IMG/VR virus record: IMGVR_UViG_3300017991_004456
Span: 1 to 26,586 of that record
Source of the DNA: a virus
Length of the DNA: 26,586 nucleotides
Strand: one strand, 5' to 3'
A program made the position numbers and the translations under genes. Positions 1,884 to 18,695 of the stretch are shown piece after piece. Positions within the stretch are counted from its first letter, which is position 1. The number at the start of each line of letters is the position of its first letter. The notes beneath the pieces were generated by a model. The model was not told where the DNA came from and searched no databases. It saw only the letters and a list, made by a program, of their open reading frames with translations.

Positions 1884-2387
1884 TCAAGTAAACAAATCTT
1901 CATTCCATTCTCGATGTCCTTCACGGAACGCCATGTTGGACTGTGTTTCGCGCACTTCCACTCGATAACACCAGAGACGTTCGGCTTCGCCAGGGCCCCA
2001 CATGTCCGGAATGTACACTGCATTTACATATCGGTACAACATGTCTGCCAGACCTTCACATCCAAGTCTTGGCAACACGGTGAGTTTGGCCAGATTCTTT
2101 GATTGCAACATTCGGAAGGTCTCGATCTCGGGATCATCTTCAGCTACCAGCAATGTATGATCAAATTGATCCTCCAGCATAGTCTTGAGTTCCTTGAGAC
2201 CACCATAATCGGCGCACCAGTTGCGTATGTCCAGGTCATCTGTGCCGAAGTAAAATTTCATAGAAAAGCTATAACCATGTATGAGATTGCAATGGCTGTC
2301 AGCACGCCACTGCCGATAGGCACAGGGAAAAGCGTCGTGATACTCCTTGGTTGATGTAAATCGATAAACACGTGGGTCATTTGCCAT
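1884..2387 (-). CDS. queD: QueD/6-pyruvoyl-tetrahydropterin synthase family protein
   Basis: This 167-aa T-fold protein has recognisable QueD landmarks: the Cys of SHCNLIHGY (C33), a DYGGLK segment (D60), FDHTLL (D76-H77) and RET (catalytic Glu) near residue 148. In the 7-deazaguanine pathway QueD converts dihydroneopterin triphosphate to 6-carboxytetrahydropterin. The usual zinc ligands are altered. The HGH motif reads HGY, and the upstream AxH position is AYR, so this belongs to a divergent subgroup and metal binding may differ. The ATG at 2387 has a strong AAGGAG site. The gene leads its own unit, with a sigma70-like promoter about 80 bases upstream. Its function may be pterin or deazaguanine synthesis. 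Confidence 0.78.
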   Translation of the reverse strand: MANDPRVYRFTSTKEYHDAFPCAYRQWRADSHCNLIHGYSFSMKFYFGTDDLDIRNWCADYGGLKELKTMLEDQFDHTLLVAEDDPEIETFRMLQSKNLAKLTVLPRLGCEGLADMLYRYVNAVYIPDMWGPGEAERLWCYRVEVRETQSNMAFREGHREWNEDLFT

Positions 2388-2430
2388 CTCTAGTCTCCTT
2401 TAAAAGGGGCAAGTTTGATGACATGCAGAA

Positions 2431-2498
2431 TATTTAGAGTGGGATGAACGTCGTAGACCACTGTTTTTCATTATAGACAGCTATTTATCAATTGTCTA
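2431..2498 (-). promoter_or_regulatory. Sigma70-like promoter and 5' leader of the queD unit
   Basis: On the minus strand, TAGACA (2498-2493) and TATAAT (2475-2470) are separated by exactly 17 bases; the -10 is a perfect consensus and the -35 matches at five of six positions. The -35 lies inside the 3' end of the HIT gene. Transcription would start near 2463, leaving a leader of about 75 bases before the queD ATG at 2387. The leader contains an AT-rich TCTAAATA (2438-2431), probably not a separate promoter. Confidence 0.75.
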
Positions 2499-2886
2499 GC
2501 GGTGAGCGATAAGTGTTGCTGTGATAATTGCCCTGACCTGGCACCACGTGCCTCACACCGCCCGTGGGATCCGTACAATCTCCCGCGCGCCTGGGTATGA
2601 GATGCACGTGCGGATACATCACGGTTTGTCCGGCTGCCCTTCCCATGTTGAGTCCTATGTTGTAGCCATCGCAGTCACCGGCAGCTACCAGGCGATCGCC
2701 CTCCAGCTGTGCTTCGGTCATGGCTCTGTGTATGATCTGTGGCGTGTCTATGCGGGGCACAAACAACATGTGTCCCGCAGTCACTGGGAACCGATCTCGG
2801 AACACCGTGACGTGATCGTTCTGCCATACCAAATCGTCCCAGGGCGCTATGCCCTGTTCGTGTGCTTGAGTCAAAGTAATAGTCAT
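2488..2886 (-). CDS. HIT family protein (nucleotide hydrolase/transferase)
   Basis: This 132-aa protein ends its conserved core with AGQTVMYPHVHLIPR (about residues 85-99), the histidine-triad signature of HIT hydrolases and transferases, which act on nucleoside phosphate linkages. The first His of the usual HxHxH is Tyr (Y91). The other two (H93 and H95) remain, including the expected nucleophile. A DRFPVTAGHMLFVPR segment matches the family's second conserved block. The gene starts seven bases after the DUF4214 stop with GAGG in between, so the two are cotranscribed. The substrate is unknown. A nucleotide scavenging or housekeeping role would fit but is inference. Confidence 0.85.
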   Translation of the reverse strand: MTITLTQAHEQGIAPWDDLVWQNDHVTVFRDRFPVTAGHMLFVPRIDTPQIIHRAMTEAQLEGDRLVAAGDCDGYNIGLNMGRAAGQTVMYPHVHLIPRRAGDCTDPTGGVRHVVPGQGNYHSNTYRSPLDN

Positions 2887-2893
2887 GATTGCC

Positions 2894-4669
2894 TCACGGA
2901 AAAGAAAAGAAATTGGGATCTACCGCTACCAAATTGACAGTAGCCCAGACACTGTCAGGGCCCCATGCAAGACTGATGAGATCAAGATCTCCATCGGGAG
3001 TGCGTACCACATTGATGGGCGATGGATGGCCACCAAGCTCTAATCGCAAATCAGTAAGGTCTTGTGTGAATGCTTCATGATAGGTACCATCTTGATGAGC
3101 TATCAAGGCACGGTTACTGTTTTCTCCACCGTTGTAGTCTTGAGCCGATAACCAGATATCCATCAGTCCATCGCCATTGACATCTATCAATCGAGGCGCA
3201 TAACTCACGTTGCTGACCATGTCAAAATCTTTCAATGTGGAGGCAGTTACATCGCGAAATCTTCCCTGACCGAGGTTTTGCAAGAATTGCAATTCAAAAT
3301 AACTGTGCCAATCGTTACGAGCATTGTTGGCCGATGTGGAAATCAACACATCGGGTAAGCCATCACGATTGAAATCAAAAGTAGTAGCCCTCACCGAATG
3401 TGGTCGTTGTTGATCAAAATTGATCATGTCCGCATGATCGCGCCACTGATCGAGATAAAATCGTTCACTGGGCAACTGTGATATCTCACGAAAGTCTATG
3501 CTGGTGCCGGTAATGTCGAGGTTGTGCAACAAGGTATCTCGATCAGGCCTGATATCACTGTCAGTGGTCACGAACTGCATGGTACCATCCTGCAGGAAAT
3601 CACCAGCAGCCAAACCGGCTGCATAGACATCTAAGGTGCTGGTCTTGACTTCAAAACCTTGTGCTTGTCCCATGATCACTGTTTGCTCAGGTCCAAAACT
3701 GGCTATCACGATGTCGTCACGACCATCGCGATCAAGATCGGCCACGGCACTGTCATGAGCCCAAATGTCACCAATGTCAATGTCATGACGCGTGAGAGAT
3801 TGCCCTTTTTCATTGATCAGTATCACTCCGGGCCCATACAGCTTCATGTCGGTACTGGGAGCGATCCAGATATCCTGCCAACCATCCCCGTTAAAATCGC
3901 CAAATTTCACGGATGGTTCAGTGCCCAAGATCTTATTGTTTTGTAGCCATAGTTCGGTTTCCGTGGCAAACTCACCGGTGTTCCATCCTAGCACCTGGAT
4001 CAAACTCTCTTGCCAATCAGGCCAAGGTGAACTTTGACTTTTGCGTCCGGCCAGTATGATCTCATCTATACCATCTTGGTTAAGATCTATCATGAAAAAA
4101 TCGCCCAACCAGTTGTCACCATGGTCGGGGAACAACTTAACCGATGCCTGTGCCGTGATCGGAAATCGGAACAAAGGCGAACCAATATCTTCCGCGTCGT
4201 CGATGCGCTGGATCCACGCCGAAACCACGCTGGCGGGTTCGCTGCCTTGATACCATTCAGCCAATTTGCTGTCATCGCGCAAGCGTTGAGTGAAATCGTG
4301 ACAAGCCTCCACCCGCATCTGCAACAAAGCATGGTCTTGAGTACCAGGTTGTGCGCCATAAAAAATACGGGCACTGGCATCAATCAGGCTCACGTTGCCA
4401 CTGTCGATCTCATTGGCCCACCATGCCAGCCCTTGACTGTCGGGCTCGCGATCAAATAGTCTTAGATAGATCAGGCGTATCATGTCCCTGGTGTCAAGAT
4501 CCGAATACAAGTTTTGGCTTTCTTGGCTGCGGCCAAAAGCCTGTATGATGGAAGACATGTCGGAATCATTTTCTACCAGCTTGCTGGTCCAGTAGTCAAG
4601 TCCTTGCACATCAGCTGGCCTACCATAATAGGCCAGATACATCTGTTGTACCTGTGTAGATGCGGACAT
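2894..4669 (-). CDS. DUF4214 and FG-GAP/VCBS repeat protein
   Basis: This 591-aa protein has two regions. Residues 1-130 contain two DUF4214-like helical repeats (YLAYYGRPADVQGLDYW and the related YLRLFDREPDSQGLAWW). The rest carries FG-GAP/VCBS-type blades with DxNxDGxxD calcium loops at about 195, 258, 311, 432 and 496, predicting a beta-propeller. There is no N-terminal signal peptide. Such domains occur in secreted or surface proteins and in some phage tail or adhesion proteins. The gene starts at ATG 4669 with GGAG upstream and has its own strong sigma70-like promoter, so it is probably not only a late virion gene. A virion adhesin, a secreted host-surface factor, or cargo acquired from a bacterium are all possible. 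Confidence 0.8.
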   Translation of the reverse strand: MSASTQVQQMYLAYYGRPADVQGLDYWTSKLVENDSDMSSIIQAFGRSQESQNLYSDLDTRDMIRLIYLRLFDREPDSQGLAWWANEIDSGNVSLIDASARIFYGAQPGTQDHALLQMRVEACHDFTQRLRDDSKLAEWYQGSEPASVVSAWIQRIDDAEDIGSPLFRFPITAQASVKLFPDHGDNWLGDFFMIDLNQDGIDEIILAGRKSQSSPWPDWQESLIQVLGWNTGEFATETELWLQNNKILGTEPSVKFGDFNGDGWQDIWIAPSTDMKLYGPGVILINEKGQSLTRHDIDIGDIWAHDSAVADLDRDGRDDIVIASFGPEQTVIMGQAQGFEVKTSTLDVYAAGLAAGDFLQDGTMQFVTTDSDIRPDRDTLLHNLDITGTSIDFREISQLPSERFYLDQWRDHADMINFDQQRPHSVRATTFDFNRDGLPDVLISTSANNARNDWHSYFELQFLQNLGQGRFRDVTASTLKDFDMVSNVSYAPRLIDVNGDGLMDIWLSAQDYNGGENSNRALIAHQDGTYHEAFTQDLTDLRLELGGHPSPINVVRTPDGDLDLISLAWGPDSVWATVNLVAVDPNFFSFP

Positions 4670-4695
4670 CGAGCGCTCCGGTTATGATATCTACC

Positions 4696-4724
4696 AGTAT
4701 AACACTGTCTGATTTAGTGGTCAA
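4696..4724 (-). promoter_or_regulatory. Strong sigma70-like promoter with extended -10 (DUF4214 gene)
   Basis: TTGACC (4724-4719), a 17-base spacer and TATACT (4701-4696) lie on the minus strand. The spacer ends in TGT, giving an extended -10 (TGTTATACT) identical to the one before the DsbA-like gene. A CAGT/ACTG inverted repeat surrounds the -10. The predicted start site is about 20 bases before the ATG at 4669, and the -35 lies just inside the gap after folE. Confidence 0.8.
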
Positions 4725-4728
4725 CCAA

Positions 4729-5427
4729 CTATCGCGGCGCAAAATCTTGTTGCAGTTTGATATTGTCTATGAATTCTTTTTTCACAGCAGGGTCTTTGCG
4801 GAACGCCCCATGTAGCACCGTGGTCTGGGTAAGGCTTGAGTGTGCCATGATGCCGCGATTTTCACAGCACCCATGTTGCGCCTGTATGTACACACCTACG
4901 TCTTTCGAGTCAGTGGCTCGCATGATCTCGCGAGCGATGTCGTTACACAGCTCTTCCTGCAAGGTTCCGCGTCGACTGCACCACTGTGCGATACGAGTGT
5001 ATTTGGAGAGTCCAATCAGTTTTTCTGCTGCCAGGATGCCAATGTAAGCAACACCCACTACAGGCTGGTGGTGGTGGCTACACATGCTGCGGATCTCACT
5101 GCGCACCACCAGCATGCCCTCATAGCGATCCTTGCTGTCGTTGGGAAATGCTGTACAGTCAGGTGCGGCATGATAGCGTCCCGCCATGATCTCGTTGTAG
5201 TACATTTTGGCTAGTCGGCGTGCCGTGCCCCGTGAATTGGGATCGGTTTCTCTGTCGATCAAAAGTCGATCCAGAACCAGTTCAAATGCTTCGGTGGCTT
5301 CGTCTATTAAGAACGGTATGTCGGTGTCACGCACATAGTCCGAGACATTGTCTCCGGCCCAGAATCTCTTTCCATCTTCACGCATTCTCTTGCGCAAGAT
5401 ATCACTTAGGTACTTTCCATTTTCCAT
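4729..5427 (-). CDS. folE: GTP cyclohydrolase I
   Basis: This 232-aa protein matches FolE along its catalytic half. RSMCSHHHQPVVG (C116, H118-H119) corresponds to the CxHH zinc and active-site motif, IGLSKYTRIAQWCSRR to the GLSK/R region, and AQHGCCENRG (H185, C187) to the second zinc motif. FolE converts GTP to dihydroneopterin triphosphate, the first step towards folate, biopterin and, through QueD/QueE/QueC, 7-deazaguanines. Length is typical. Its start at 5427 has CGGAG nine bases upstream. It sits between a terminator/promoter pair and the next gene's promoter, so it forms its own transcription unit. The likely role in this phage is supplying precursor for DNA modification, an inference from the QueD and TGT-like genes. 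Confidence 0.93.
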   Translation of the reverse strand: MENGKYLSDILRKRMREDGKRFWAGDNVSDYVRDTDIPFLIDEATEAFELVLDRLLIDRETDPNSRGTARRLAKMYYNEIMAGRYHAAPDCTAFPNDSKDRYEGMLVVRSEIRSMCSHHHQPVVGVAYIGILAAEKLIGLSKYTRIAQWCSRRGTLQEELCNDIAREIMRATDSKDVGVYIQAQHGCCENRGIMAHSSLTQTTVLHGAFRKDPAVKKEFIDNIKLQQDFAPR

Positions 5428-5467
5428 TTAATTTTCTCCGAGTTAGGGCGGTGGATCGCCAGTGATT

Positions 5468-5496
5468 ATTTTAACAATTTAAAAAGACAAAATCAA
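5468..5496 (-). promoter_or_regulatory. Probable sigma70-like promoter of folE
   Basis: TTGATT (5496-5491) and TAAAAT (5473-5468) are spaced by 17 bases on the minus strand. The -35 lies within the descending arm of the upstream terminator, so termination and reinitiation share bases. The -10 is good and the -35 moderate. The remaining leader to the ATG at 5427 includes a small GGCG/CGCC inverted repeat at 5448-5461. Confidence 0.5.
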
Positions 5497-5513
5497 CCTA
5501 GTCTAGGTTGATT
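5475..5513 (-). terminator. Intrinsic terminator after the oxygenase genes
   Basis: AATCAACCTA and TAGGTTGATT form a perfect ten-base inverted repeat with a three-base loop (5491-5513). In minus-strand RNA the repeat is followed by TTGTCTTTTT. The stop codon of the last oxygenase gene (5503-5505) is inside the hairpin. This is the clearest rho-independent terminator in the window and marks the end of the long cassette. Confidence 0.85.
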
Positions 5514-6009
5514 TGAACATTCCGGTGATTTGCAGTGTATATCTGTTGCAAAGTCCTAAATTGGCGGCTAGATGCTTTTCATCGTTTTTCCATCCCACAC
5601 ACAGTCCCGCCGGCCAGTTATGATACATATGATCTCCCACTTGTAAAAAATGTCCAGGTGCAGCATCTTCTAAAAACAAAATGTATCTTCTGACGCATGA
5701 TAGATCGGATAGATTGTGTGTTCGACTGTAAAATCCGTATCGGTCAAAATGCATGGGAAAATAGGTACCTGGTGAAAATCTACTGAAACTGTAACTAATA
5801 TTTTCCAGATCTGGAAAATATTCCGACAGGTATCGCATCCATTCAAAGGGCTCGTTCAGCACATACAGTCCTATCATCAGACTGGTTTTTTGATGCCCTG
5901 AATCAGTCCAACTGGATTCTTGATTGGCATCCTTGAAAACATCTAGGGTGTATTCTAATTCTCTATGCTTGAGTCCCCATAGTATGGGTATCACTCGATT
6001 CCTAATCAT
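5503..6009 (-). CDS. 2OG-Fe(II) dioxygenase-like protein 2
   Basis: This 168-aa protein has a compact oxygenase core. MHFD near residue 86 supplies the HxD iron ligands (H87, D89), H146 in EKHLAANLG is the distal His, and R156, ten residues later, is placed to bind 2-oxoglutarate. Strand-rich sequence between them fits a double-stranded beta-helix. It overlaps the stop of the related upstream oxygenase by eight bases, and both share the same layout, so they probably arose by duplication. Its stop codon lies in the terminator hairpin. The gene is AT-rich relative to genes on either side of the cassette. The substrate is unknown; sugar, peptide or small-molecule hydroxylation are all possible. 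Confidence 0.72.
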   Translation of the reverse strand: MIRNRVIPILWGLKHRELEYTLDVFKDANQESSWTDSGHQKTSLMIGLYVLNEPFEWMRYLSEYFPDLENISYSFSRFSPGTYFPMHFDRYGFYSRTHNLSDLSCVRRYILFLEDAAPGHFLQVGDHMYHNWPAGLCVGWKNDEKHLAANLGLCNRYTLQITGMFKST

Positions 6010-6541
6010 TTAGAAATCCTGATACCTGCATAGTATACTTGTCTTGGAAACCGGCGTTGGCACTCACGTGCAATATATCACTGTCCCACATGAACCCTTC
6101 TCCGGCTTTCCAATCAGTGCAGGTCTCAAATTTGCCGTCTAATTTATATTGTAAGAATTGTCCCATCCGGTAATCATTTAGGAAAATATTAGCTCGTACT
6201 TTCCTCTCTTTGCGATCAGGGAATCTTTGGGAAATTTGGAAAAAAGTATCTCGATGATAAGGAACCACACACCCAGGCGGCTGTTTGATTGTTGACACAG
6301 TCACTACCTGCATGTTTAATTCATTTCCAATGGATTCAAAATCTAACTGTTCATCTGTCCACCATAGCTGGTGTATCTTGGTGTTGGCCAAACAATACGA
6401 GTCGGGAAATCCTCCGTACTCGTTGTGTATGTCTGTAAGTTCGTGGACTTGATGCTTAATGCAACTTCCGGTATGGCTATCATAATTAGCCTCTAACAAA
6501 GGTGTAAAATCTAAATCAAGCTCGATGTGTTTAAAATACAT
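6002..6541 (-). CDS. 2OG-Fe(II) dioxygenase-like protein 1
   Basis: The 179-aa product carries YHRD (H96, D98) as HxD iron ligands, a distal H158 in DILHVSANAG, and K168 ten residues on as a possible 2-oxoglutarate anchor. GQFLQYKLDG and WKAGEGFMWDSD are typical turns between jelly-roll strands. The start overlaps the aminotransferase stop by 11 bases, and the end overlaps the second oxygenase gene, so the three are translated together. It and its neighbour share motif order and spacing. Like them it is AT-rich, suggesting the group moved as one piece. Aspartyl/asparaginyl hydroxylase-like proteins are the nearest known type I can suggest. Confidence 0.72.
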   Translation of the reverse strand: MYFKHIELDLDFTPLLEANYDSHTGSCIKHQVHELTDIHNEYGGFPDSYCLANTKIHQLWWTDEQLDFESIGNELNMQVVTVSTIKQPPGCVVPYHRDTFFQISQRFPDRKERKVRANIFLNDYRMGQFLQYKLDGKFETCTDWKAGEGFMWDSDILHVSANAGFQDKYTMQVSGFLND

Positions 6542-7130
6542 GTTGATTGATTCTTATCTGTCTACAATCATTGTACTGTATGAATTTAGGTTCTTGGTCT
6601 ACAGTCGACAAAAGTTCCATGCCTTGTTGGCACAATTCTAATGTTGGACAATAGTGATATCCTAGATAAAATTCTTTTTGACTTATCCATGGATTGATTT
6701 TTAAATCTCTACCATCACTCCGTAACATACTTAGTACACGATGGGCCTCGAAATCATCTAATAGGATAGCTCCACCTTTGCCGAGTTGTAGAGGTTTGGT
6801 ATTACCAAAACTCAAACACTGCATCTGTCCGGATCTGTACATGTTTCGTTTGAGTAGTCTGGCGCTGTCCCAAATACGGGTGTCCAACAGTGGATATTCA
6901 CCTATCCATGTTTGACGAGGTTCGTCGAGATAAGAAAAATCTATGCCCAATTTGGTCATCAACATGGGCACACTTAGATAAGTGAACGGAGTGAACTGGC
7001 ATGATTTGATACGATCATACCTGAGACACAATTCTAAAGCATGTGTGCATCCATCAGTGAGAACAACAAAAGGAGCACCAGTAAAGTCGGACAACATTTT
7101 TTCGAAGTCAAACAGTGTTTTATATTGCAT
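6531..7130 (-). CDS. Half-length DegT/DnrJ/EryC1-type PLP aminotransferase
   Basis: The 199-aa protein resembles the large domain of sugar aminotransferases (family length about 370 aa). VLTDGCTHALEL (about residues 23-34) matches the phosphate-binding turn, WDSARL (D88) the Asp that contacts the PLP ring nitrogen, and SFGNTK (K112), followed by a GKGG loop, the Schiff-base lysine. The C-terminal domain that normally completes the fold is missing, yet the frame ends cleanly and overlaps the next gene, so this does not look like random decay. It starts inside the SGNH gene's last codons (11-base overlap). It could work as a reduced enzyme, a PLP-binding protein, or with a partner. Confidence 0.7.
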   Translation of the reverse strand: MQYKTLFDFEKMLSDFTGAPFVVLTDGCTHALELCLRYDRIKSCQFTPFTYLSVPMLMTKLGIDFSYLDEPRQTWIGEYPLLDTRIWDSARLLKRNMYRSGQMQCLSFGNTKPLQLGKGGAILLDDFEAHRVLSMLRSDGRDLKINPWISQKEFYLGYHYCPTLELCQQGMELLSTVDQEPKFIQYNDCRQIRINQHVF

Positions 7131-7785
7131 TGAATTTTTCCAATATCAAATCTGCCCACTGAAGATGACCTTGGACATTGGCATGACAGTCATCGTAACT
7201 GATAAAAAGATTATTATCCAAAAGAAAATCTAAGATATACAAAGGCGAAGAGTCCGAAATGTCTAGTCCTAGAGTTCCAACTTTGCTGAAATAAAATTGT
7301 ATCGCATTGGGTTGTCGCAGGTACACGCTGTCTATATAGCTCTGTAGATTGGTCTTGCTTTCATACTCGTTGTAATAATTGTTGAACCAAGTATCATAGT
7401 AAGTGATATCACTGTCTTTGGGCGCCAAGTGTTGAAATTTGTCGATGGCATCGGTATCTGATCCTCGACTACGCATAAACATCCTGCCATGATCGTTATA
7501 GGTAAGGCTTTGGGCTATTACTTTGTTTTGATCAGCTTTGCTTTTGTCATGTACAAAGACTTTCCTGCTGAAATGACTCCAGCCGACTACCACACGATCG
7601 TGATTAGACATGGAAACGAGATCTTGTTTCCAACTCTGGTAGATAAAAAAATTGTCTACTGCGGGCCGAGCCCGATTGATCAATTCTAATCCTAATTTTT
7701 GTGCTACTATCTCTGGCCATGACTGAGCATTAGATGGCAAATTATAATCTAAGCTATTGCTGTCACCATAGATCCATAACTTCAT
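7120..7785 (-). CDS. SGNH/GDSL-type hydrolase
   Basis: This 221-aa protein begins with KLWIYGDSNS, whose S9 in GDS is the expected nucleophile of SGNH hydrolases. Near the C-terminus, DDCHANVQGHLQWA gives the DxxH pair (D198, H201) and the following GH..WA that end this family. These enzymes cleave acyl esters, including O-acetyl groups on glycans. There is no signal peptide, so it probably acts in the cytoplasm. The start overlaps the epimerase stop as ATGA. Within a sugar cassette, deacylation of a nucleotide sugar or glycan is plausible but unproven. The gene is distinctly AT-rich. Confidence 0.8.
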   Translation of the reverse strand: MKLWIYGDSNSLDYNLPSNAQSWPEIVAQKLGLELINRARPAVDNFFIYQSWKQDLVSMSNHDRVVVGWSHFSRKVFVHDKSKADQNKVIAQSLTYNDHGRMFMRSRGSDTDAIDKFQHLAPKDSDITYYDTWFNNYYNEYESKTNLQSYIDSVYLRQPNAIQFYFSKVGTLGLDISDSSPLYILDFLLDNNLFISYDDCHANVQGHLQWADLILEKFNAI

Positions 7786-8762
7786 TTACGATACCATTGC
7801 CAGGCATGAGTGATCATTTCGTCTAAGCCATTGATGGCGTGCCACCCCTGAGACTCAATCTGGCCAGCATCTGCCTGCAGTCGAGCAGGATCACCCGGGC
7901 GCCTTGGTCCCACTGTCATTTTGAGACGTTTTTTAGTGATACGTTCTGCAGCATCGATGATTTCTCTATTACTGAATCCTTGATTGATGCCTACATTGTA
8001 AACTCCGTTCACAAAATCTGTGTTAAGAGCTTTTAGGTGTGCTGCAGCCACATCAGCCACATGGACGTAGTCACGAATGCAGGTGCCATCATCGGTGTCA
8101 TAATCATCGCCGTTGAGCACGAAGTCCTTGTCGTCACGGATGCTTTCCAACACGCGAGCTATGATATGAGTAGCATTGTCACGTTGGCCATGCCTGCCTT
8201 CTGGATCGGCTCCGCACACGTTAAAATACCGAAACGCAGCCCAGTTGAGGCCATAGGCTCGACCGTAGCTTTTCAGCATCATCTCCGTCATGAACTTGCT
8301 TTCGCCGTAAGGACTCACGGGCACCGGCAAGTCGGACTCTACACAGGGTACCTGCTGGGGCTCGCCGTACACAGCAGCCGAACTGGAAAAAATGAATCGA
8401 CTTTTGAGGCGTTGTTTGACCACATGGTCTAAAAGAGTCTTGGTCTTGACGTAATTGTTGTGATAGTAACCAGCAGGATCTTTCATGCTGGGCCCTACCA
8501 GGCTGGTACCGCCACAGTGTATGATGGCCAAGGGCTGATGACGAAAGATGGCATCTAGAGAATAGCTGCTGGCATAATCTTCCTGCATGAAGCAGTCAGC
8601 AAATGGTTTGAGATGGTTGGGCAATCGAACTTTGTCGATGCCCAACACCTTGTAGCCGGCCTCTTTGAGTGCGATCATGGTCTGGCCGCCCACAAAGCCA
8701 GCTGCACCTGTGACCGCTACCGAGTTAGACAGCACTTCTTGATCAGATTTGTTCCTTGGCAT
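7782..8762 (-). CDS. galE: UDP-glucose 4-epimerase-like NAD-dependent epimerase
   Basis: This 326-aa extended-SDR enzyme has TGAAGFVGG near residues 18-26 for NAD binding, SSSAAVYGEP (about 126-135) with the catalytic Ser, and PYGESK (Y152, K156) as the catalytic YxxxK. RDYVHVADVA and VYNVGINQGFSN are standard GalE blocks, and the C-terminus has GPRRPGDPA. It interconverts UDP-sugars, classically UDP-glucose and UDP-galactose. It starts one base after the glycosyltransferase stop, and its own stop overlaps the SGNH gene. Epimerase next to a glycosyltransferase suggests donor-sugar supply for that enzyme. A different nucleotide sugar is possible. Confidence 0.88.
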   Translation of the reverse strand: MPRNKSDQEVLSNSVAVTGAAGFVGGQTMIALKEAGYKVLGIDKVRLPNHLKPFADCFMQEDYASSYSLDAIFRHQPLAIIHCGGTSLVGPSMKDPAGYYHNNYVKTKTLLDHVVKQRLKSRFIFSSSAAVYGEPQQVPCVESDLPVPVSPYGESKFMTEMMLKSYGRAYGLNWAAFRYFNVCGADPEGRHGQRDNATHIIARVLESIRDDKDFVLNGDDYDTDDGTCIRDYVHVADVAAAHLKALNTDFVNGVYNVGINQGFSNREIIDAAERITKKRLKMTVGPRRPGDPARLQADAGQIESQGWHAINGLDEMITHAWQWYRK

Positions 8763-8763
8763 G

Positions 8764-9984
8764 TTATTCTTCTACTTTGCGAACATGATATTTGGCAGCA
8801 CTGACATGATCTCGGTAACGACGCCCGTCGCGCAGCCATTCACCACCGCGGCCTTGCATGATGTCCACGATGCGATCTACCGTGCCATCGGTCCATTCTG
8901 ATATCAGGCCTTGATTGTGATGCGCAGACATCAAGAGATTTTCCAACTTGTGGAAAGCATCGTCTATGCTCCAAGGAACATAGAGTCGGTCAGGATCGTC
9001 CGCAAAAGTTTCCGGGAAACTGCGATAAGCAGGATATAAAACATTACAGCCCAGTGCATCTGCTTCGCTCACTGTGTTTGAGACCCAGTCTTGCAAAGCG
9101 CAGTTGAACAGCACACGAGTATCATTCAGCAGGTCGTAATAGGCATTTTTCGTGAGTGCTTGATAGATTTTGAGACGCCCAAATGATTCTAACTGCCGGG
9201 CACGTATAACATAGTCCTGATTGTTGCTACGCAGCTGGTCATTGCCGCAGAATATAGCGAACTCTATGTTTTTATGCCGACCTTGCTGATGATACATCTC
9301 GACGAGATCCATGAAAAAGCCGGGCTGCTTTTCCTGATCGAATCTAGCAGCGAATGCCACTCGCATCTTTCGTTGATCGAAGTGGCGTACATTACCTGCA
9401 CCGCCAATGCGTTCCAGAACTTCTTCTTTGCCGAACGCCAGGCCGGAAATGTTCGAGATTGGGCAGTCCCAACCCGCGATGCGCATGTGTGCTACCATCT
9501 CTTCCGAAGTGGCTAGCACAGCACCGCCAGAATGTTTTACCAGTTCGCAAACCATTTTCTCATAGAGCCCCATCCACTTTGCCATGCCCCACACATGCAC
9601 GAAATCATCCGGGTCGATGCTCTGTGCAAGACAGCGAACAAACACGCGGGGACGCTGATTGACAGGCACTTGATCCATGATATAAGGCAAGCTCTCGATA
9701 CCGGGTTGGAACATGTCCTCAAAATACACAACATCATCACTGTTGACATCTCCTTGTTGCATGAGTCGAACTAGATTCATCATCTGGCTCATGGCAAAGT
9801 AGCTACGTCCGTGTGCATCCAGGACCTGGCCCACAGAGATCTTCTGGCTGTTGTCGAGATTCAAGCCAGGAACATATACCACATCGAGCCCGCGCCGATC
9901 AAACACACGACGGTTCCACTCTGTGAGTTGTAGGGTATATCTGGATTCGTAACTTTCCAGACCCATGTAAAAAAGTTTGCGCAT
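8764..9984 (-). CDS. GT-B (GT4-like) glycosyltransferase
   Basis: This 406-aa protein has two Rossmann-like halves. The second begins with VAFAARFDQEKQPGFFMDLVE (written here as one family block, residues about 209-229), the usual start of the donor-binding domain in GT-B enzymes. NTVSEADALGCNVLYP near residue 310 matches the E(x7)E-type donor region. No membrane segment is present. A TAGGAG site precedes the ATG at 9984, shared with the stop of the upstream 70-aa gene. The epimerase gene follows at once, pointing to a UDP-hexose donor. Targets may be DNA bases, lipopolysaccharide or virion glycans; the sequence does not decide. Confidence 0.78.
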   Translation of the reverse strand: MRKLFYMGLESYESRYTLQLTEWNRRVFDRRGLDVVYVPGLNLDNSQKISVGQVLDAHGRSYFAMSQMMNLVRLMQQGDVNSDDVVYFEDMFQPGIESLPYIMDQVPVNQRPRVFVRCLAQSIDPDDFVHVWGMAKWMGLYEKMVCELVKHSGGAVLATSEEMVAHMRIAGWDCPISNISGLAFGKEEVLERIGGAGNVRHFDQRKMRVAFAARFDQEKQPGFFMDLVEMYHQQGRHKNIEFAIFCGNDQLRSNNQDYVIRARQLESFGRLKIYQALTKNAYYDLLNDTRVLFNCALQDWVSNTVSEADALGCNVLYPAYRSFPETFADDPDRLYVPWSIDDAFHKLENLLMSAHHNQGLISEWTDGTVDRIVDIMQGRGGEWLRDGRRYRDHVSAAKYHVRKVEE

Positions 9985-9992
9985 GGTCGCTC

Positions 9993-10205
9993 CTAGGAGA
10001 ATCTGCGTTGATCAATGGTCCACATGTCCTTGGCGTTTTTGCCTTGCAAGAACTTGTTGAACTGCTGATATGAATAGCTGCGCCAATTGTAAAGATCGCG
10101 TTCATCAAACTTGTAACCATAGTCCCGACAAAAATCATGGTACTGTTCGAGATCTTGTAAAATCGCTACGGCTTTGGGATTGGCGCGCACTTCGGGTCTG
10201 GCCAT
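9993..10205 (-). CDS. Small conserved-looking phage protein (70 aa)
   Basis: I do not recognise a function. The 70-aa product is soluble, rich in Tyr, Asp and Arg, and contains YHDFCRDYGYKFDERDLYNWRS, followed by a QQFNKFLQGKNAKDMW segment; secondary structure looks helical. It has one of the best ribosome binding sites in the window (AAGGAGG before the ATG at 10205). It lies 12 bases after the QueD-like gene and eight before the glycosyltransferase. I have an impression that similar small proteins occur in T4-like cyanophages, but I cannot verify it here. Confidence 0.7.
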   Translation of the reverse strand: MARPEVRANPKAVAILQDLEQYHDFCRDYGYKFDERDLYNWRSYSYQQFNKFLQGKNAKDMWTIDQRRFS

Positions 10206-10217
10206 ATTTCCTCCTTG

Positions 10218-10664
10218 TTAGACTTTGATTTGTTGAGGGTGATGTGTTTCGTAGCGGATCATGCAGCCATTTTCGCCGTCTTCGGAGACTTCGATCCAGA
10301 CAGCGCGATCAGGATAACGACCTGCTATCTGTATATATAGGTCATCGGCCATCATCTCACAACTTTTGTAGTCGAGCTTTAGAACTGAGTCCGAATTATT
10401 ATACAGGCTTTCACACCACCGCTTGAACTGGATGAACTCGATGTCCCTATCATTGTGGAGCACATCGATCCACACCCGGAAATGGAAGATATGGCGATGA
10501 GGATTAGCAAGGAACGAAACATCATATTCATCTCCGGTGGCGAGTGCAGGATCTGTGGCTGCTGCCGGATATTTATGGATGCCTTCCTTGCGGAACGTGA
10601 TCCAGATCTTGCGATCTGCTCGTGTCATGATACGGTCTGCTGTTTCTCGTTGTTGTTGGTTCAT
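10218..10664 (-). CDS. T-fold protein resembling 6-pyruvoyl-tetrahydropterin/QueD synthases
   Basis: The 148-aa product looks like a second, divergent QueD-type T-fold protein. FLANPHRHIFHFRV resembles the HxH zinc strand, DRDIEF the following conserved Asp-Phe region, and LDYKSCEMMADDLYIQI the T(a)E helix. VSEDGENG takes the place of the catalytic Glu strand. The catalytic Cys upstream of HxH is not obvious. The start at 10664 is chosen because it overlaps the stop of the 57-aa gene as ATGA and has AAAGGA upstream; a longer frame from 10703 exists but lacks this. It may have a pterin or deazaguanine role, but catalytic activity is uncertain. Confidence 0.6.
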   Translation of the reverse strand: MNQQQRETADRIMTRADRKIWITFRKEGIHKYPAAATDPALATGDEYDVSFLANPHRHIFHFRVWIDVLHNDRDIEFIQFKRWCESLYNNSDSVLKLDYKSCEMMADDLYIQIAGRYPDRAVWIEVSEDGENGCMIRYETHHPQQIKV

Positions 10665-10834
10665 TTCGATGAGTCCTTTTGTTGAATCGCACTTTTTCCG
10701 CATGTGTCTGGATACAGGATCTCGTTACAGACGTTTGAAACTCCATAATGCGAATCTTTGACAGCATACAACGGCACAAATATTATCGCCAATGCCAACA
10801 AAAGTAATGTCCATACTGTAATAGTGGTTTTCAT
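10661..10834 (-). CDS. 57-aa membrane microprotein
   Basis: This short gene encodes 57 residues: a charged MKTT start, a single hydrophobic helix at about 8-24 (WTLLLLALAIIFVPLY), and a tail with two Cys (C36 and C45). It may be a single-pass inner membrane protein or an uncleaved signal anchor, with the Cys possibly outside the cytoplasm. Its ATG overlaps the stop of the upstream 101-aa gene (ATGA), and its TGA overlaps the start of the QueD-like gene (ATGA). This double coupling and a GAGG site are strong evidence that it is translated. No family is recognised. Confidence 0.72.
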   Translation of the reverse strand: MKTTITVWTLLLLALAIIFVPLYAVKDSHYGVSNVCNEILYPDTCGKSAIQQKDSSK

Positions 10835-11136
10835 GTCTGCCTCATTGATTCCATGGTTATGATCTTGCCCAGTTCGGTATTGAAGTCCTGCTCGTCCGTG
10901 ATGATGTAGTGCCGGCTGTCTGTACGATCGGTGCGGCGATCATAGGTCCTGAAGCTGACCACACTGCCGCCGATCATTTTCTTGATTGAGATGCGCAAGC
11001 CATCTTCCCAGCCTGTTTCCTCGAGTTCTACGGAGTGTGATTTGGCAGAGGCTGACACTGTTACGAGCTCAATCTCATCACGATTTTCCCAGGCCCAGCG
11101 CCACTTGCGGGCGAACCATCGATCAAACCATTTCAT
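10831..11136 (-). CDS. Hypothetical protein (101 aa)
   Basis: I do not recognise this 101-aa protein. The N-terminus, MKWFDRWFARKWRWAWENRD, is rich in Trp and Arg and could be an amphipathic, membrane-contacting helix. The rest is predicted to be beta-rich (VELEETGWEDGLRISI, SVVSFRTYDRRTDRTDSRHYII) and ends in a helix. The ATG at 11136 follows the previous stop by 11 bases without a strong ribosome binding site. It overlaps the 57-aa membrane gene by four bases, so the two are coupled and may act together at the membrane. Confidence 0.65.
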   Translation of the reverse strand: MKWFDRWFARKWRWAWENRDEIELVTVSASAKSHSVELEETGWEDGLRISIKKMIGGSVVSFRTYDRRTDRTDSRHYIITDEQDFNTELGKIITMESMRQT

Positions 11137-11147
11137 GAGATTTATAC

Positions 11148-11417
11148 CTAGATAGTTTCTTCTTGGAACAAAGCATGATAATTTACTTTGTAGCCTGTAT
11201 CGGTAGTATCAATGACTTCAACGATGGCCCCGCCCCATCGCAACATGAATACCACTACTTCCTGGCGATCATTGAACCATAGGTCAAATGTGCCTTTGTC
11301 ACGCTGATAGTTGCTGACCAATCTCCAAGTGTCGGCACAGAGATTGTGCTGGCACCATTCCATGACCTCAGCCCGGTCACTGTTGTCCAGGCCTGTGTGT
11401 ACCACATATTGTCTCAT
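11148..11417 (-). CDS. Hypothetical protein (89 aa)
   Basis: The 89-aa product has no family I recognise. It is soluble, begins MRQYVVHTGLDNSD, and alternates short strands and helices (VMEWCQHNLC, WRLVSNYQRDKGTFDLWF, VVFMLRWGGAIVEV), a small alpha/beta fold. The ATG at 11417 overlaps the stop of the 174-aa gene as ATGA. It belongs to the block of small proteins between the TGT-like enzyme and the QueD-like gene; conserved placement could be tested in relatives. Confidence 0.65.
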   Translation of the reverse strand: MRQYVVHTGLDNSDRAEVMEWCQHNLCADTWRLVSNYQRDKGTFDLWFNDRQEVVVFMLRWGGAIVEVIDTTDTGYKVNYHALFQEETI

Positions 11418-11938
11418 AGCGTATGATCCTTTTCGTATTGGCTCCAGTCTGTGAATCGATCACGTGACCGCAGATCATGCAACTGATGAACCCATACACC
11501 CGGGTTGGTAGCTGCAAAATCTCGATCATCAATTTTGATGCAGGTATTGTAATTCCACAGTTTTGCGTAAGGCACAGGTACTTTGATGATGGGGATGAAT
11601 CTGTCAAATTCACACAGACCACCTTCGTGGAATTCTTCTACGTACTGCATGGGGATGTCCAAACTGCAAAAAAAGCCCCGCGTGAGATAGGGCATGATCA
11701 TGTTTTCCCACACAGTGATTTCTGCTGCACCTCGCGGATGATAACTGTCATTGGCGCCAAAAAAGATATGGCGTATGTTTTTGGGAGCAAGTCGCAGATT
11801 CACATCCTGCAAGGCATTATCAATCTCTTCGATGCTGTGATATCCTACCACGAACAAAGTATCCATGCCATGGGCGGGAGTGTGCTCGATCTCACGGCCT
11901 GAAAAAAAAGCCACTTGCGCATGTCCGGGTCTATCCAT
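11414..11938 (-). CDS. Conserved-looking phage protein of unknown function (174 aa)
   Basis: This 174-aa protein begins MDRPGHAQVAFFSGREIEHTP and continues with alternating strand/helix segments: TLFVVGYHS, IRHIFFGANDSYHP, FFCSLDIPMQYVEEF, FIPIIKVPVPY. It ends with a Tyr/Asn/Asp-rich NYNTCIKIDDRDFAATNPGVW stretch. The regular beta-alpha pattern suggests a Rossmann-like or partial TIM-barrel fold. I see no CxxxCxxC radical-SAM motif, so it is not a normal QueE. Its start lies within the last codons of the DUF465-like gene. Position next to the TGT-like gene raises the possibility of a role in the same pathway, but this is only context. Confidence 0.7.
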   Translation of the reverse strand: MDRPGHAQVAFFSGREIEHTPAHGMDTLFVVGYHSIEEIDNALQDVNLRLAPKNIRHIFFGANDSYHPRGAAEITVWENMIMPYLTRGFFCSLDIPMQYVEEFHEGGLCEFDRFIPIIKVPVPYAKLWNYNTCIKIDDRDFAATNPGVWVHQLHDLRSRDRFTDWSQYEKDHTL

Positions 11939-12107
11939 TTTCTTTACGCCTCTTTAGGTCTTCGATCTGATCTAGCAGTTGCAGTTTTTGCTTTTTGAGA
12001 TCAGTGAGTTGTACATCATCAAATTTTCCGGTTTTTTCCAAACCATCTATGCGTTTGTTGATAGCTGCATGTGCTTCTTTTAGATGTCGCAATCGGTTTT
12101 CAAACAT
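11931..12107 (-). CDS. DUF465/SlyX-like short coiled-coil protein (58 aa)
   Basis: The 58-aa product is almost entirely helical: it begins with RLRHLKEAHAAINKRIDGLE, then a central KTGKFDDVQLTDLKKQKLQL and a charged tail. The turn LEKTGKFDD followed by LKKQKL is the typical pattern of DUF465 (YdcH-like) proteins, about 60-75 aa with unknown function. Its ATG at 12107 shares bases with the TGT-like gene's stop (TGATG), and its own end overlaps the next start by eight bases. Its role in a phage is unknown. Confidence 0.75.
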   Translation of the reverse strand: MFENRLRHLKEAHAAINKRIDGLEKTGKFDDVQLTDLKKQKLQLLDQIEDLKRRKENG

Positions 12108-13642
12108 CACACACTGTCCTCCAAATCTATGAGTTTTTGTATATCCAGATCTTCGGGATCAACTTCTTCAGCGCCGTTGGGGAAAAGATGGTCATACATA
12201 CTGTAGGCGTTGACCGCACGTTTACCAGTGAATCCTCGGGTGCCTATGATCCTTTCCCATATACTAGCATGATCGTCGATGATGGCCAAACTTTTTGAAC
12301 GATCTCGCGCTGCAAAGACTCGATTGATCACCCGCCGGGCATCAAAAATTGGATCCAATGGGTGCACCATCATGTCTGGTGCACAACCTTGATCATACAG
12401 TCGATTGGCCCGCTGCACCGCTTCGATGTGCATCCACACATTATGACCCATTAACAAAGCATAGCTAAATGAATCCCAAGATGTTTTTCCTTCTTTGCCC
12501 ACTTTGTTTTTGTCACCAGGGCGATATACACACACGTCGCTTATCAACAGTCGGCTTGACACTGGTGAATCTTCAAAAGTTTTGTGGATACCATCTTGTG
12601 TGACTGCCGTGGCAAAGGATCGACGGTCAGTGGCATACCGTTTGTTGTCGGCGGTGGGCCCCATGCGATAGCTCCATTTTTGTCTTGGATCGCACACTAT
12701 TTCATGATACAGTTGACCATTGGCAATGGCCAAGAATGGAGAGGCACAATCAAATGATATTGTAAATCTGGGATTGTGATATTCACGCACAGCTCGCTGG
12801 ATGTCTGTGAGCAACACCGCCCACTCCAGTTTAGACGTGCCCAGAAAGTGCATCCAATCATGCAGTCCGGGTTGCAATAGTCCGTCGTGTATGAGGTGCA
12901 CCAGGCGCTTCAAGACCAGGTGCACATCACACATGTTCTGTCCACCCATGGCCCATCCTTCGAAAGGGCGTTGATACTTGCCGGGATCAGCATAATCTCG
13001 CATGAGTTCGTACCAGTGATCGGCTTCTTTGTGATTGCCGCCCTGCAATACATTCAGATGCCGAGTTGATCCGGTACGATTGTTGATCCAAAAGTCGTTG
13101 TTGATCTTGGTGGCCGTGACTGCATCCTCATAGCTGGAGATCCCGGCCTGTGCAGCCCATTCAGGATTACGATAGGTCCAGGTCGGAATGTCCATGGTCA
13201 TACCATAATCAGAGATGGCACATTGCCATTCCAAGACTTCTTGTCGTTTCTTTGCCGAGGCACGATCTTGTGGATCGGCCCAGCGGCCAGGCCACACGCC
13301 CTTGGCTATCTGGAAACCTCCGGAATCGCACAGCAAAAAACTGCTGGGGTCACGCACTCTCACCATGTCTTCTTTGGGCACATGTTTGGACACATCGAGA
13401 TTGGCATGCCCAGCCGAGTAAAGGCTCCAACGGTAGGGAAACAGGCTCTTGCCAGGATTCAACCAGTTCAGCTGTTCCATGTCCGGTATGCCAACTGGCA
13501 TGCGTGACAGCGGCACGAACTGCTCGTGTCTTTGCTTGCCTATGTATGTGGAATAGAAACTCGAGATGGCTGGCAAAAATATAGCATAATCATTCTGGGC
13601 AGCAGTCAGGTCGTGCTGACCGGGGTTGAGTGATTCGGCCAA
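12107..13642 (-). CDS. dpdA: TGT-like DNA 7-deazaguanine transglycosylase (DpdA-type)
   Basis: This 511-aa protein shares key tRNA-guanine transglycosylase motifs. LLCDSGGFQ (about residues 103-111) is the substrate-base pocket, DIPTW (D151) follows, VLQGGN is at about 198, GWAMGGQ is at 229-235, and FDCASPF (D298) corresponds to the FDCxxP nucleophile segment. The C-terminal CxCxxC-His zinc site of bacterial Tgt is not visible. DpdA enzymes are diverged Tgt homologues that exchange guanine in DNA for a 7-deazaguanine, protecting phages from restriction. FolE and two QueD-like genes here support that reading. It starts with TTG at 13642, three bases after the clamp stop; the site is weak and a later start is possible. 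Confidence 0.8.
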   Translation of the reverse strand: MAESLNPGQHDLTAAQNDYAIFLPAISSFYSTYIGKQRHEQFVPLSRMPVGIPDMEQLNWLNPGKSLFPYRWSLYSAGHANLDVSKHVPKEDMVRVRDPSSFLLCDSGGFQIAKGVWPGRWADPQDRASAKKRQEVLEWQCAISDYGMTMDIPTWTYRNPEWAAQAGISSYEDAVTATKINNDFWINNRTGSTRHLNVLQGGNHKEADHWYELMRDYADPGKYQRPFEGWAMGGQNMCDVHLVLKRLVHLIHDGLLQPGLHDWMHFLGTSKLEWAVLLTDIQRAVREYHNPRFTISFDCASPFLAIANGQLYHEIVCDPRQKWSYRMGPTADNKRYATDRRSFATAVTQDGIHKTFEDSPVSSRLLISDVCVYRPGDKNKVGKEGKTSWDSFSYALLMGHNVWMHIEAVQRANRLYDQGCAPDMMVHPLDPIFDARRVINRVFAARDRSKSLAIIDDHASIWERIIGTRGFTGKRAVNAYSMYDHLFPNGAEEVDPEDLDIQKLIDLEDSV

Positions 13643-13644
13643 GA

Positions 13645-14376
13645 TTATTTGCTCTGCGCCGGCAATAGATAACGATAGGTAGCGATACCCGAGTCAACCG
13701 TGATCTCCATGGCCCCTTCGTCGCTGATGCGCATGACTTTGTCGCCGCTCAAAGCCAGGATAGAAATCACTTTTTGCACCGGCCAGGACCAGGTCTGCTG
13801 CAGAGATCCCTCTACACCGGGCTGGAACACAAATTCTCCAGCATGTGTGCTGTGATCACCAAACATGAATTTGAGATCTTTGTTGACCACCGTGACACGG
13901 AAATTTGATTCTTCCGCATTGGCCTGCGCCTGCATGCGGAGACGCTGTATACCGGCCACGGTGGGAGCGAATTCGATGTTCCATTTGACGCCACGGAACT
14001 TGGCAGTCTTGAGTTTTTCTGTTATGATCTCGGATGTCATGAAACGATAATCATTGGTAAAGTCACCCACAGCGTTTTTGAAATGCAGTCCTACTGGTAT
14101 GATGTCACCATTTCGATCTTGGCGTCGCACAGTGATCTCAGCATCCTCACGATATTCTTGCAGATTCAGCAAGATCTTGAGCTTGGCGAGATTGGGCATG
14201 CCAAACAAACCCATAAAGTCTGCAATGGCCCCGCTGAATTCACCCTGGAGTACCACGCTTTTGTCTTCGGCAATGCTGTCAATGGTTGTTGCCTTGTCGG
14301 TTCCCGTGATCTTGATGGTATCGATGCACCCAAGATCGAATGTGTGTTCTACTAAGTCAAGCAAATGGTCTCGCAT
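13645..14376 (-). CDS. 45: Sliding clamp, T4 gp45-like
   Basis: The 243-aa protein resembles T4 gp45, the trimeric clamp that tethers the polymerase. The pattern of paired strand-rich domains, the internal FTNDYRFMTSEIITEKL, and a C-terminal GIATYRYLLPAQ fit this family, as does the length (T4 gp45 is 228 aa). I start it at ATG 14376 because AAAGGAA lies seven bases upstream; the frame extends to a TTG at 14391, but that overlaps the ribosome binding site. In T4, gp45 also activates late transcription, consistent with the late promoter box found at 25971-25978. It has its own promoter, downstream of the methyltransferase-like gene. Confidence 0.85.
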   Translation of the reverse strand: MRDHLLDLVEHTFDLGCIDTIKITGTDKATTIDSIAEDKSVVLQGEFSGAIADFMGLFGMPNLAKLKILLNLQEYREDAEITVRRQDRNGDIIPVGLHFKNAVGDFTNDYRFMTSEIITEKLKTAKFRGVKWNIEFAPTVAGIQRLRMQAQANAEESNFRVTVVNKDLKFMFGDHSTHAGEFVFQPGVEGSLQQTWSWPVQKVISILALSGDKVMRISDEGAMEITVDSGIATYRYLLPAQSK

Positions 14377-14401
14377 GTGAATTCCTTTCAAAGAATGTGT
14401 T

Positions 14402-14431: not shown

Positions 14432-15382
14432 TCATTTTTTCAATGATCGGTGATTTATCACCGACAGCGCCTGTCCACCACGCAAACTGGTTCGAGTTCC
14501 AGGACGCACCAGCTCTAACCAGGTGTTGGCAGCGTCCAAGTGATATTGATACTGTATCTCATATCCCATATTCCGTGCCAGTGACGCCACCATTGAACAA
14601 GTAGCATAGCAAGCGAAGTTTCTTTCGGCCAAAAGCACTCCGCCCACACGATCGCAGTCATTGATGCTCATGGCCAGCACTCCACCCGGCGACAATTTGT
14701 GATAGATCTCCTCGAGATACTGTTTGATGATTTCAAGCGGACGGTATGTAAAAAAGTTATAGGCCAGCACAAACCCCAACTGCTGGTCTGGCAATTTTGA
14801 TAAAAATGGTGGCCCCACTGATTCTTGCACCACGCATGTGCGCAATCTGCGTTGATATTCCTCAGGAAAATTATCTATGATGGGCCTGAGCAGATCAAAG
14901 TTGATGTCACACACATACAAGGGATCCAGGGCCACCATATCCCGAGTCCATGTCTCGAGCCCTGGTCTCAAGATCATGCCGGGCTTTTGCCAATGGCTGT
15001 GCACCAAAATACGTCCCCGTACCAGGGATAGATCTTTTTCGGCCAGTTGTGGACGCCGGTTGAGCACATAGTCTGGATCACTGGTGATATCGCCAAATTC
15101 ATAGAGTTTGTAGCTGGCAGCGTGATAGGCAGGTAGCATGTCGTTGATGCTGCTTTGGATCTGATCACGTATCTGTTGCAAAACATCACCAAATTGCGTA
15201 AGACTGGTCAACACTTGTCGATAACCCTGATTCATGTCTTGTTCAAGTTCAGGAAACTTGATGGCGCTGGTTTCCACCAAATGCATCACGGGTTTGAGCT
15301 GCTGCGCCACGATTTCATGCACTTCGTTTGAAGACAGTTCCTCTAATTGATTGCGTAGATGTACTAGCTCGCTGAGTTTCAT
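14432..15382 (-). CDS. Methyltransferase-like Rossmann protein between gp43 and gp45
   Basis: The 316-aa product has an N-terminal helical region (about residues 1-110) and a C-terminal Rossmann-like half. There, VCDINFDLL, GFVLAYNFFTYRP and KLSPGGVLAMSINDCDR resemble the post-motif I, IV and V strands of SAM methyltransferases. The glycine-rich motif I is not well preserved, so activity is uncertain. Its start overlaps the polymerase stop as ATGA, and the promoter of the clamp begins at its stop. In T4 the space between genes 43 and 45 holds regA, 62 and 44; here it holds this gene instead. It could be a phage SAM-dependent enzyme or a SAM-binding regulator. Confidence 0.6.
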   Translation of the reverse strand: MKLSELVHLRNQLEELSSNEVHEIVAQQLKPVMHLVETSAIKFPELEQDMNQGYRQVLTSLTQFGDVLQQIRDQIQSSINDMLPAYHAASYKLYEFGDITSDPDYVLNRRPQLAEKDLSLVRGRILVHSHWQKPGMILRPGLETWTRDMVALDPLYVCDINFDLLRPIIDNFPEEYQRRLRTCVVQESVGPPFLSKLPDQQLGFVLAYNFFTYRPLEIIKQYLEEIYHKLSPGGVLAMSINDCDRVGGVLLAERNFACYATCSMVASLARNMGYEIQYQYHLDAANTWLELVRPGTRTSLRGGQALSVINHRSLKK

Positions 15383-18105: not shown

Positions 18106-18435
18106 TTATTGATCGGTTTCCGGGGGCTTTGATTCAATGCAACCAAACACGATCATGGTTATAAACCCAATATAAGGTATCAAGATAGACGCGGCCCACC
18201 AAGGGTTCAGTGCCGCGTCACGACATCGACTGGCTGTAACAGCCAGTGTAATCCAGATCAACAACACACTGCTGACCAACATAAACACACCACCAAACGC
18301 GATCATGATACCATCCATGGCGATAAATGCCACACTGATCCCCCATACCAAAAATGCCAAAAGCCAAGATATGATCAACACGGCCCAGTACTCCGATCGT
18401 TGGGCTAGTCTATGGAAATCTAGATAGCGTTGCAT
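18106..18435 (-). CDS. DUF805 family inner membrane protein
   Basis: The 109-aa protein begins MQRYLDFHRLAQRSEYW, has three to four hydrophobic helices, and contains AVTASRCRDAALNPWWAAS, all typical of DUF805 proteins (small bacterial membrane proteins of unknown function). The TGATG overlap with the stop of the DsbA-like gene sets the start at 18435. It lies between the DsbA-like gene and the polymerase, under the promoter at 18716. Phages carry it rarely, as far as I know; it probably came from a bacterial host. Confidence 0.82.
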   Translation of the reverse strand: MQRYLDFHRLAQRSEYWAVLIISWLLAFLVWGISVAFIAMDGIMIAFGGVFMLVSSVLLIWITLAVTASRCRDAALNPWWAASILIPYIGFITMIVFGCIESKPPETDQ

Positions 18436-18695
18436 CACAGTGTCTTGCCCACAGTGGTCAAGATGTTTTCAAGTAGGGCATGATCCTGTTGTTCCCGACC
18501 AAATTCGGCCTTGTGTGCGAGACGGATGGCCTTTTTCAGCACATTGGGTTTGATTTCCAGTTCCTCGGCCACGGCCTTGATGGTGTCTGATAATCCACCA
18601 TTCAATGTTTCAATTTCGTGCATGACCTGCATGCCTTCATTCACGATCTGTGTGAGTTTGGCTTTTTGTTCTGCTGTAAAAGTTCTGTCGTCCAT
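18435..18695 (-). CDS. dsbA: DsbA-like small phage DNA-binding/transcription protein
   Basis: The 86-aa product is helical. An N-terminal EQKAKLTQIVNEGMQVMHEI helix is followed by NGGLSDTIKAVAEELEIKPNVLKKAIRLAHKAEF, a helix-turn-helix-like pattern, and an acidic tail. The layout and length resemble T4 DsbA, a small double-stranded DNA-binding protein of late transcription, and related proteins near gene 43 in T4-like phages. It starts at ATG 18695 with GGAG five bases upstream and is first in the polymerase unit behind a strong promoter. The name is by general likeness; another small phage regulator is possible. Confidence 0.6.
   Translation of the reverse strand: MDDRTFTAEQKAKLTQIVNEGMQVMHEIETLNGGLSDTIKAVAEELEIKPNVLKKAIRLAHKAEFGREQQDHALLENILTTVGKTL

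Follow-up and report, generated by a model that had tools for sequence, protein, structure and literature searches.

What does a virus do with genes for the early steps of 7-deazaguanine synthesis when it also carries an enzyme with the fold of a tRNA-guanine transglycosylase (TGT)? The question is raised by the IMG/VR contig IMGVR_UViG_3300017991_004456, which was analysed over its entire 26,586 bp (the window) and is probably a fragment of a large bacterial virus (phage). A first-pass annotation had recognised genes for FolE, a QueD-family protein, a second T-fold protein (T-fold2) and a 511-residue TGT-like enzyme, and had read them as parts of a phage system that inserts preQ0-like bases into DNA. 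All four genes are present, on the minus strand (Table 1). That the cassette serves 7-deazaguanine modification of DNA is very likely, and comparison with about 160 related loci suggests that the enzyme travels with the replication machinery and that the base may receive a sugar. The best reading is that the system is of this known kind and that its form is new, being QueC-less, clamp-tethered and possibly glycosylating; that combination as a whole is favoured tentatively. The folds, the relationship to DpdA2, the co-occurrence of genes, the absence of QueC and the polymerase-like tail peptide described here are computational results.

The 511-residue protein matches nothing in Pfam, PHROG, NCBIfam or the PDB sequences, and a profile of its family matched nothing useful among PDB sequences. 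Structure prediction, a check that had been proposed earlier, gave an AlphaFold model with a predicted local distance difference test score (pLDDT) of 88 and a predicted template modelling score (pTM) of 0.86, for which Tgts are the best match among solved structures (Foldseek E 3.6e-6, probability 1.00; VIA Z 20.4 over 321 residues, root-mean-square deviation 5.3). The base-pocket and FDCxxP motifs seen in the first pass are there (DSGGFQ at 106, FDCASP at 297), as is NVLQG at 197, and the lack of the usual zinc site extends to the family, with CxCxxC in 0/41 aligned members. Profile-profile comparison links the family to DpdA2, represented by the phi-Grn1 protein and its ACP17, X1 and BUCT-ZZ01 homologues (E 9e-7, probability 91, 191 columns). 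Since pairwise identity between the window enzyme and phi-Grn1 DpdA2 is just 15%, the enzyme would be a remote DpdA2 member or a sister family. By these sequence comparisons it belongs to the DpdA2 lineage and not to the 9g/CAjan type, and its predicted activity is the exchange of guanine in phage DNA.

Alternatively, the enzyme could act on phage or host tRNA, with the pathway raising queuosine-type tRNA modification, as the fold is common to it and to tRNA Tgts. This is highly improbable given the missing zinc motif, the sequence link to DpdA2, a tail peptide resembling that of the polymerase, and the adjacent genes for a putative clamp and the DNA polymerase. The first-pass annotation would have yielded to a tRNA-specific placement of the protein; what emerged was a fold like that of all Tgts, with the sequence link and gene context of DpdA2.

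Known homologues of the enzyme come from Sinorhizobium phage Phosso, from Vibrio phage 2.275.O and, with 34% identity, from PA5oct-like phages of Pseudomonas. Relatives occupy a further 592 places or more in viral contigs; when the enzymes of PA5oct and 2.275.O served as queries against such contigs, no homologues were retrieved. The 2.275.O homologue sits inside a region with QueF, a YhhQ-type transporter, QueC, FolE, QueE and QueD. The gene directly after it (L083:19723-20832), in the position that a glycosyltransferase occupies in PA5oct, is amidoligase-like, and its being a glycosyltransferase was ruled out. One relative (L036) has the TGT reading frame broken into two open reading frames.

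The DpdA2 family was named by Hutinet 2019 from phage nt-1 (PMC6884629). The DNA of nt-1 contains dPreQ0, and the mass of 6E35.1a DNA is consistent with dPreQ1 (PMC6884629; PMC12028318). The DpdA2 proteins of these two Vibrio phages share with the window enzyme the TGT fold, the motifs DSGG.Q, HxLG and S[FY]D, and co-encoded FolE, QueD and QueE. The window lineage differs in being remote in sequence (the profile finds the link, whereas BLAST does not), in having T-fold2 and a glycosyltransferase (GT) and no QueC or QueF, and in possessing the tail peptide, which nt-1 lacks. A deazaguanine system in the jumbo phage PA5oct was already noted by Iyer 2021 (PMC7824862), whose passage on this phage mentions synthesis and incorporation and, within that passage, does not bring up the absence of QueC, T-fold2, a GT or a clamp peptide. 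Besides the enzyme homologue, PA5oct carries FolE, QueD, QueE, T-fold2 and a GT as in the window lineage.

FolE, QueD and QueE would convert GTP to 7-carboxy-7-deazaguanine. That these genes occur together with the enzyme was borne out by whole-record searches of 41 records, in which FolE was found in 35/41, QueD in 32/41 and QueE in 29/41; the association of the pathway genes with the enzyme is far above chance. The QueD-family protein of the window keeps C33, D76-H77 and E147, with HGY replacing HGH in the alignment. PA5oct (L169) has two PTPS genes (9207-9722 and 11502-11969), one canonical and the other of the window type with HGY for HGH.

As first reported, neither QueE nor QueC is in the window. 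The suggestion that missing que genes may be located elsewhere probably holds for QueE and appears to fail for QueC. Because 27 of the 31 FolE-positive viral-contig relatives (window excluded) carry QueE and the other four are contigs terminating near FolE/QueD, the window has probably lost QueE to its contig end, with the gene probably just past it; QueE is annotated in the complete genomes of both PA5oct and Phosso. QueC was found in neither of these genomes and, among the 41 records, occurs in 2.275.O alone. Weak QueC matches in four relatives (G002, G003, G009 and G015) were read as NAD synthetase-like proteins, and one in G033 as a different PP-loop protein adjoining a radical-SAM gene. 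QueC appears from these searches to be truly absent from the lineage, the two complete genomes included. Since the relatives lack it, the pathway probably ends at 7-carboxy-7-deazaguanine rather than preQ0, and a QueC-less route is considered likely. Judging from the reading frames of two loci (L177 and L178), QueE of this clade seems to carry a long insertion in its radical-SAM loop, after the second cysteine and before the third.

With no QueC in the lineage, preQ0 would be the expected product only if the host provides this enzyme. Modification of the preQ0 type, with QueC and perhaps other steps coming from the host, is accordingly a possibility to weigh: the hosts of all DpdA2 phages known by Hutinet 2019 encode the full Q pathway (PMC6884629), and QueC-bearing DpdA2 phages exist (nt-1, Moby and pf16). 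The lack of QueC alone, with FolE, QueD and QueE kept and T-fold2 and the GT present, is nevertheless hard to square with such a product, which is considered improbable. What is supported of the original proposal is a 7-deazaguanine system in which the phage uses a DpdA-type transglycosylase lacking the zinc site; its preQ0-type product is disfavoured.

In the QueC-less route favoured here, T-fold2 is proposed to act on the product of QueE. It has no Pfam match, and its PHROG family is of unknown function. Its earlier assignment to the T-fold was confirmed by an AlphaFold model with the T-fold order of elements, for which PTPS/QueD are the nearest solved structures (VIA Z 11.3, Foldseek E 4.4e-4). 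The gene may have a longer form that starts at 10703. Residues H30, H56, H58, S101-C102-E103 and E128 are invariant, the three histidines corresponding to the zinc triad, and the QueD-type catalytic cysteine (CxxxHGH) was not found in the alignment. The reaction would probably be decarboxylation of 7-carboxy-7-deazaguanine (CDG) to 7-deazaguanine. DpdL is a predicted CDG decarboxylase, reportedly from Cui 2023, and the role ascribed to it, QueC-less and linked to FolE/QueD/QueE, would fit T-fold2, which is likened to it by role only. The T-fold2 homologue of PA5oct lies two genes past the enzyme, that of Phosso is close to the clamp gene, and ACP17 has the gene run DpdA2-GT-Tfold2-QueE. At five loci (L176, L184, L183, L175 and L186) T-fold2 is beside or near small proteins (about 260-420 residues) with TGT-like DN[SG], HFLG and D[ST]S motifs; these loci often include a nucleotide kinase or MazG and are possibly of the complete-replacement type.

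The link to a GT and the tail peptide are additions beyond the first-pass annotation. The window GT reaches Pfam E 0.006, which is under the cut-off, its BUCT-ZZ01 homologue is over the cut-off, and glycosyltransferases among PDB profiles were matched at E 0.01; homology between the window and Phosso proteins came from pair comparison, and a family alignment was made. In PA5oct the homologue comes directly after the enzyme gene and in X1 directly before the DpdA2 gene; those of Phosso, ACP17 and BUCT-ZZ01 adjoin T-fold2. Among 80 DpdA2 loci, a sample biased (also as regards QueC) by being the best matches to ACP17, T-fold2 was present in 74/80, the GT in 73/80 and QueC in 0/80, and T-fold2 and the GT were less than 300 bp apart in 70/72. 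Eighteen named complete or near-complete records, picked by T-fold2, DpdA2 or QueC relationship, included 12 with T-fold2 and 7 with QueC over the cut-off, both occurring in D479 alone (Fisher p 0.0004); the D479 match is partial and distant from the cluster and was tallied as QueC-positive. Five of the 18 have the GT (PA5oct, Phosso, ACP17, X1 and BUCT-ZZ01), exactly those with a DpdA2-type enzyme and T-fold2. Three groups appear: DpdA2-type enzymes with QueC and neither T-fold2 nor GT, DpdA2-type enzymes with T-fold2 and GT, and T-fold2 without GT, several cases of the last being beside small TGT-like proteins.

These patterns lend moderate support to a link between the GT and the modification cassette. 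That it places a sugar on the base is plausible and held with some reserve; GalE, found in 48/80 related loci, is a possible supplier of the sugar donor. Alternatively, the DpdA2-type enzyme might insert plain 7-deazaguanine or 7-carboxy-7-deazaguanine, giving dDG or dCDG with no sugar, while the GT serves an unrelated glycan. There are phages (phiST, D479, Ahp1, RHph_I1_18 and MA9V-3) in which T-fold2 lies close to small TGT-like proteins, or directly beside them, and this GT is missing, and the window has further sugar genes near the GT, so the GT could act on a glycan. This alternative is somewhat doubtful, as the only complete records with the GT are the five that combine a DpdA2-type enzyme with T-fold2, and the GT is close to T-fold2 in 70/72 DpdA2 loci.

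Evidence for a connection with replication comes from the tail of the enzyme. The model is disordered over residues 469-499 (pLDDT <50), a stretch that contains the peptide AYSMYDHLF. Counted on distinct sequences, with expectations computed from shuffles, 57/60 enzyme tails contain the motif class [FYLI]xx[LM][FY] against 3.9 expected, as do 58/60 family B DNA polymerases (PolB), while eleven neighbouring control proteins are at or below expectation. Classical DpdA2 C-termini have a SLEDLF-type motif in 49/56 cases against 0.09 expected. The FxxLF-type motif of the enzyme tail resembles the polymerase C-terminus of its own phage. Counting DpdA2 proteins too, peptides match within single phages in the polymerase/enzyme pairs SLDDLFE/TLDELFE of ACP17, SLESLFG/SLEELFG of X1, NNTDLFDW/NNNDLFGW of 2.275.O, SLEDLFGW/SLDDLFG of Moby, SLEDFFG/NLEDFFA of L208 and FSDMF/FGQMF of L079, the last with M in both. 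As a feature, the polymerase-like tail peptide has strong computational support, and these peptides resemble those that bind sliding clamps. T4-type polymerases bind the sliding clamp via such C-terminal peptides. A clamp tether for the enzyme is judged probable. It would have a precedent among DNA-modifying enzymes, since a passage of PMC13216743, citing Sommer 2004, has the T4 alpha-glucosyltransferase co-purifying with the sliding clamp gp45; the level of alpha-glucosylation in T4 is mostly not set by clamp binding (PMC13216743). Both would be phage DNA-modifying enzymes at the sliding clamp, but the T4 enzyme works on hydroxymethylcytosine whereas the proposed clamp binder of the window lineage is a base-exchange enzyme. 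The putative clamp gene is found in 79/80 related loci and that of the family B polymerase in 78/80. DpdA proteins of the 9g/CAjan type (L271:10306-11226, L272:9369-10289 and L275:8313-9233) end in VMELF, QQGLFV and IQELF, which recall bacterial beta-clamp-binding motifs, and have a clamp gene nearby.

The mechanism proposed is as follows. FolE, QueD and a QueE encoded just off the contig end would supply 7-carboxy-7-deazaguanine, which without QueC would not be converted to preQ0. T-fold2 most likely processes this base, and the TGT-fold enzyme, its disordered tail anchored on the sliding clamp of the replication machinery, would swap guanine in phage DNA for the product; the GT would then most likely attach a sugar. 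Each chemical step, the clamp binding proper and any protection from restriction are predictions. The full sequence of events, namely a T-fold enzyme acting on 7-carboxy-7-deazaguanine, clamp-tethered insertion at the fork and a dedicated GT yielding glycosylated 7-deazaguanine in DNA, is possible and is put forward with more caution than its separate steps.

Several observations weigh against this proposal. QueE is absent from the window itself, and the 80 DpdA2 loci that speak for the lack of QueC are the biased sample described above. The additional sugar genes near the window GT have a parallel in PhiXhv-12, where a GT homologue is in a sugar cluster distant from the TGT-like gene. The tail peptide is degenerate in Phosso (VEGLF) and pf16 and missing from the DpdA2 of nt-1 and phi-Grn1, so clamp binding would not be universal. 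The identification of the putative clamp rests on annotation and position, and profile comparison with T4-type clamps gave no match (probability 0.3), nor was any PDB clamp matched.

A literature search, outside which key papers lie, found no description of glycosylated 7-deazaguanine or of a DpdA clamp peptide. If the proposal is true, phage 7-deazaguanine modification gains a route around preQ0, base exchange is physically linked to replication through a short peptide, and a sugar-bearing deazapurine occurs in DNA. The module is also present in the cultured phages PA5oct, ACP17 and Phosso, which makes it directly testable.

Table 1. Features of the proposed modification cassette and its neighbours in the window.
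Feature	Position	Strand	Evidence
QueD-family protein (PTPS)	1884..2387	-	Pfam PF01242 E 2.5e-15; PHROG 2389 E 1.2e-36
FolE, GTP cyclohydrolase I	4729..5427	-	Pfam PF01227 (GTP_cyclohydroI) E 1.9e-39
GalE, UDP-glucose 4-epimerase	7782..8762	-	TIGR01179 296.9 bits, cut-off 262.3
GT4-like glycosyltransferase (predicted)	8764..9984	-	Weak Pfam glycosyl transferase matches; context of homologues
Second T-fold protein (T-fold2), PHROG 17812	10218..10664	-	AlphaFold model, PTPS/QueD nearest
Predicted TGT-fold DNA transglycosylase, remote DpdA2 relative, 511 residues	12107..13642	-	Model, profile-profile comparison, motifs
Codons for AYSMYDHLF (residues 479-487), disordered tail, proposed clamp-binding peptide	12182..12208	-	pLDDT, motif counts, PolB likeness
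Putative sliding clamp, PHROG 12062	13645..14391	-	Phosso homologue annotated sliding clamp; directly upstream of TGT gene
Family B DNA polymerase, C-terminus TFQSLFDFS	15379..17934	-	NCBIfam Pol II-type matches

Other genes accompany the cassette. Unknown proteins encoded beside the enzyme, clamp and polymerase genes recur among 80 related loci, that at 11414-11938 in 71/80, that at 14432-15382 in 67/80 and that at 18435-18695 in 73/80. The window also encodes a full-length adenosylhomocysteinase (18740-20101; TIGR00936 well over the cut-off), and in one relative (L178) MetK-like and NAD synthetase-like genes follow QueE.

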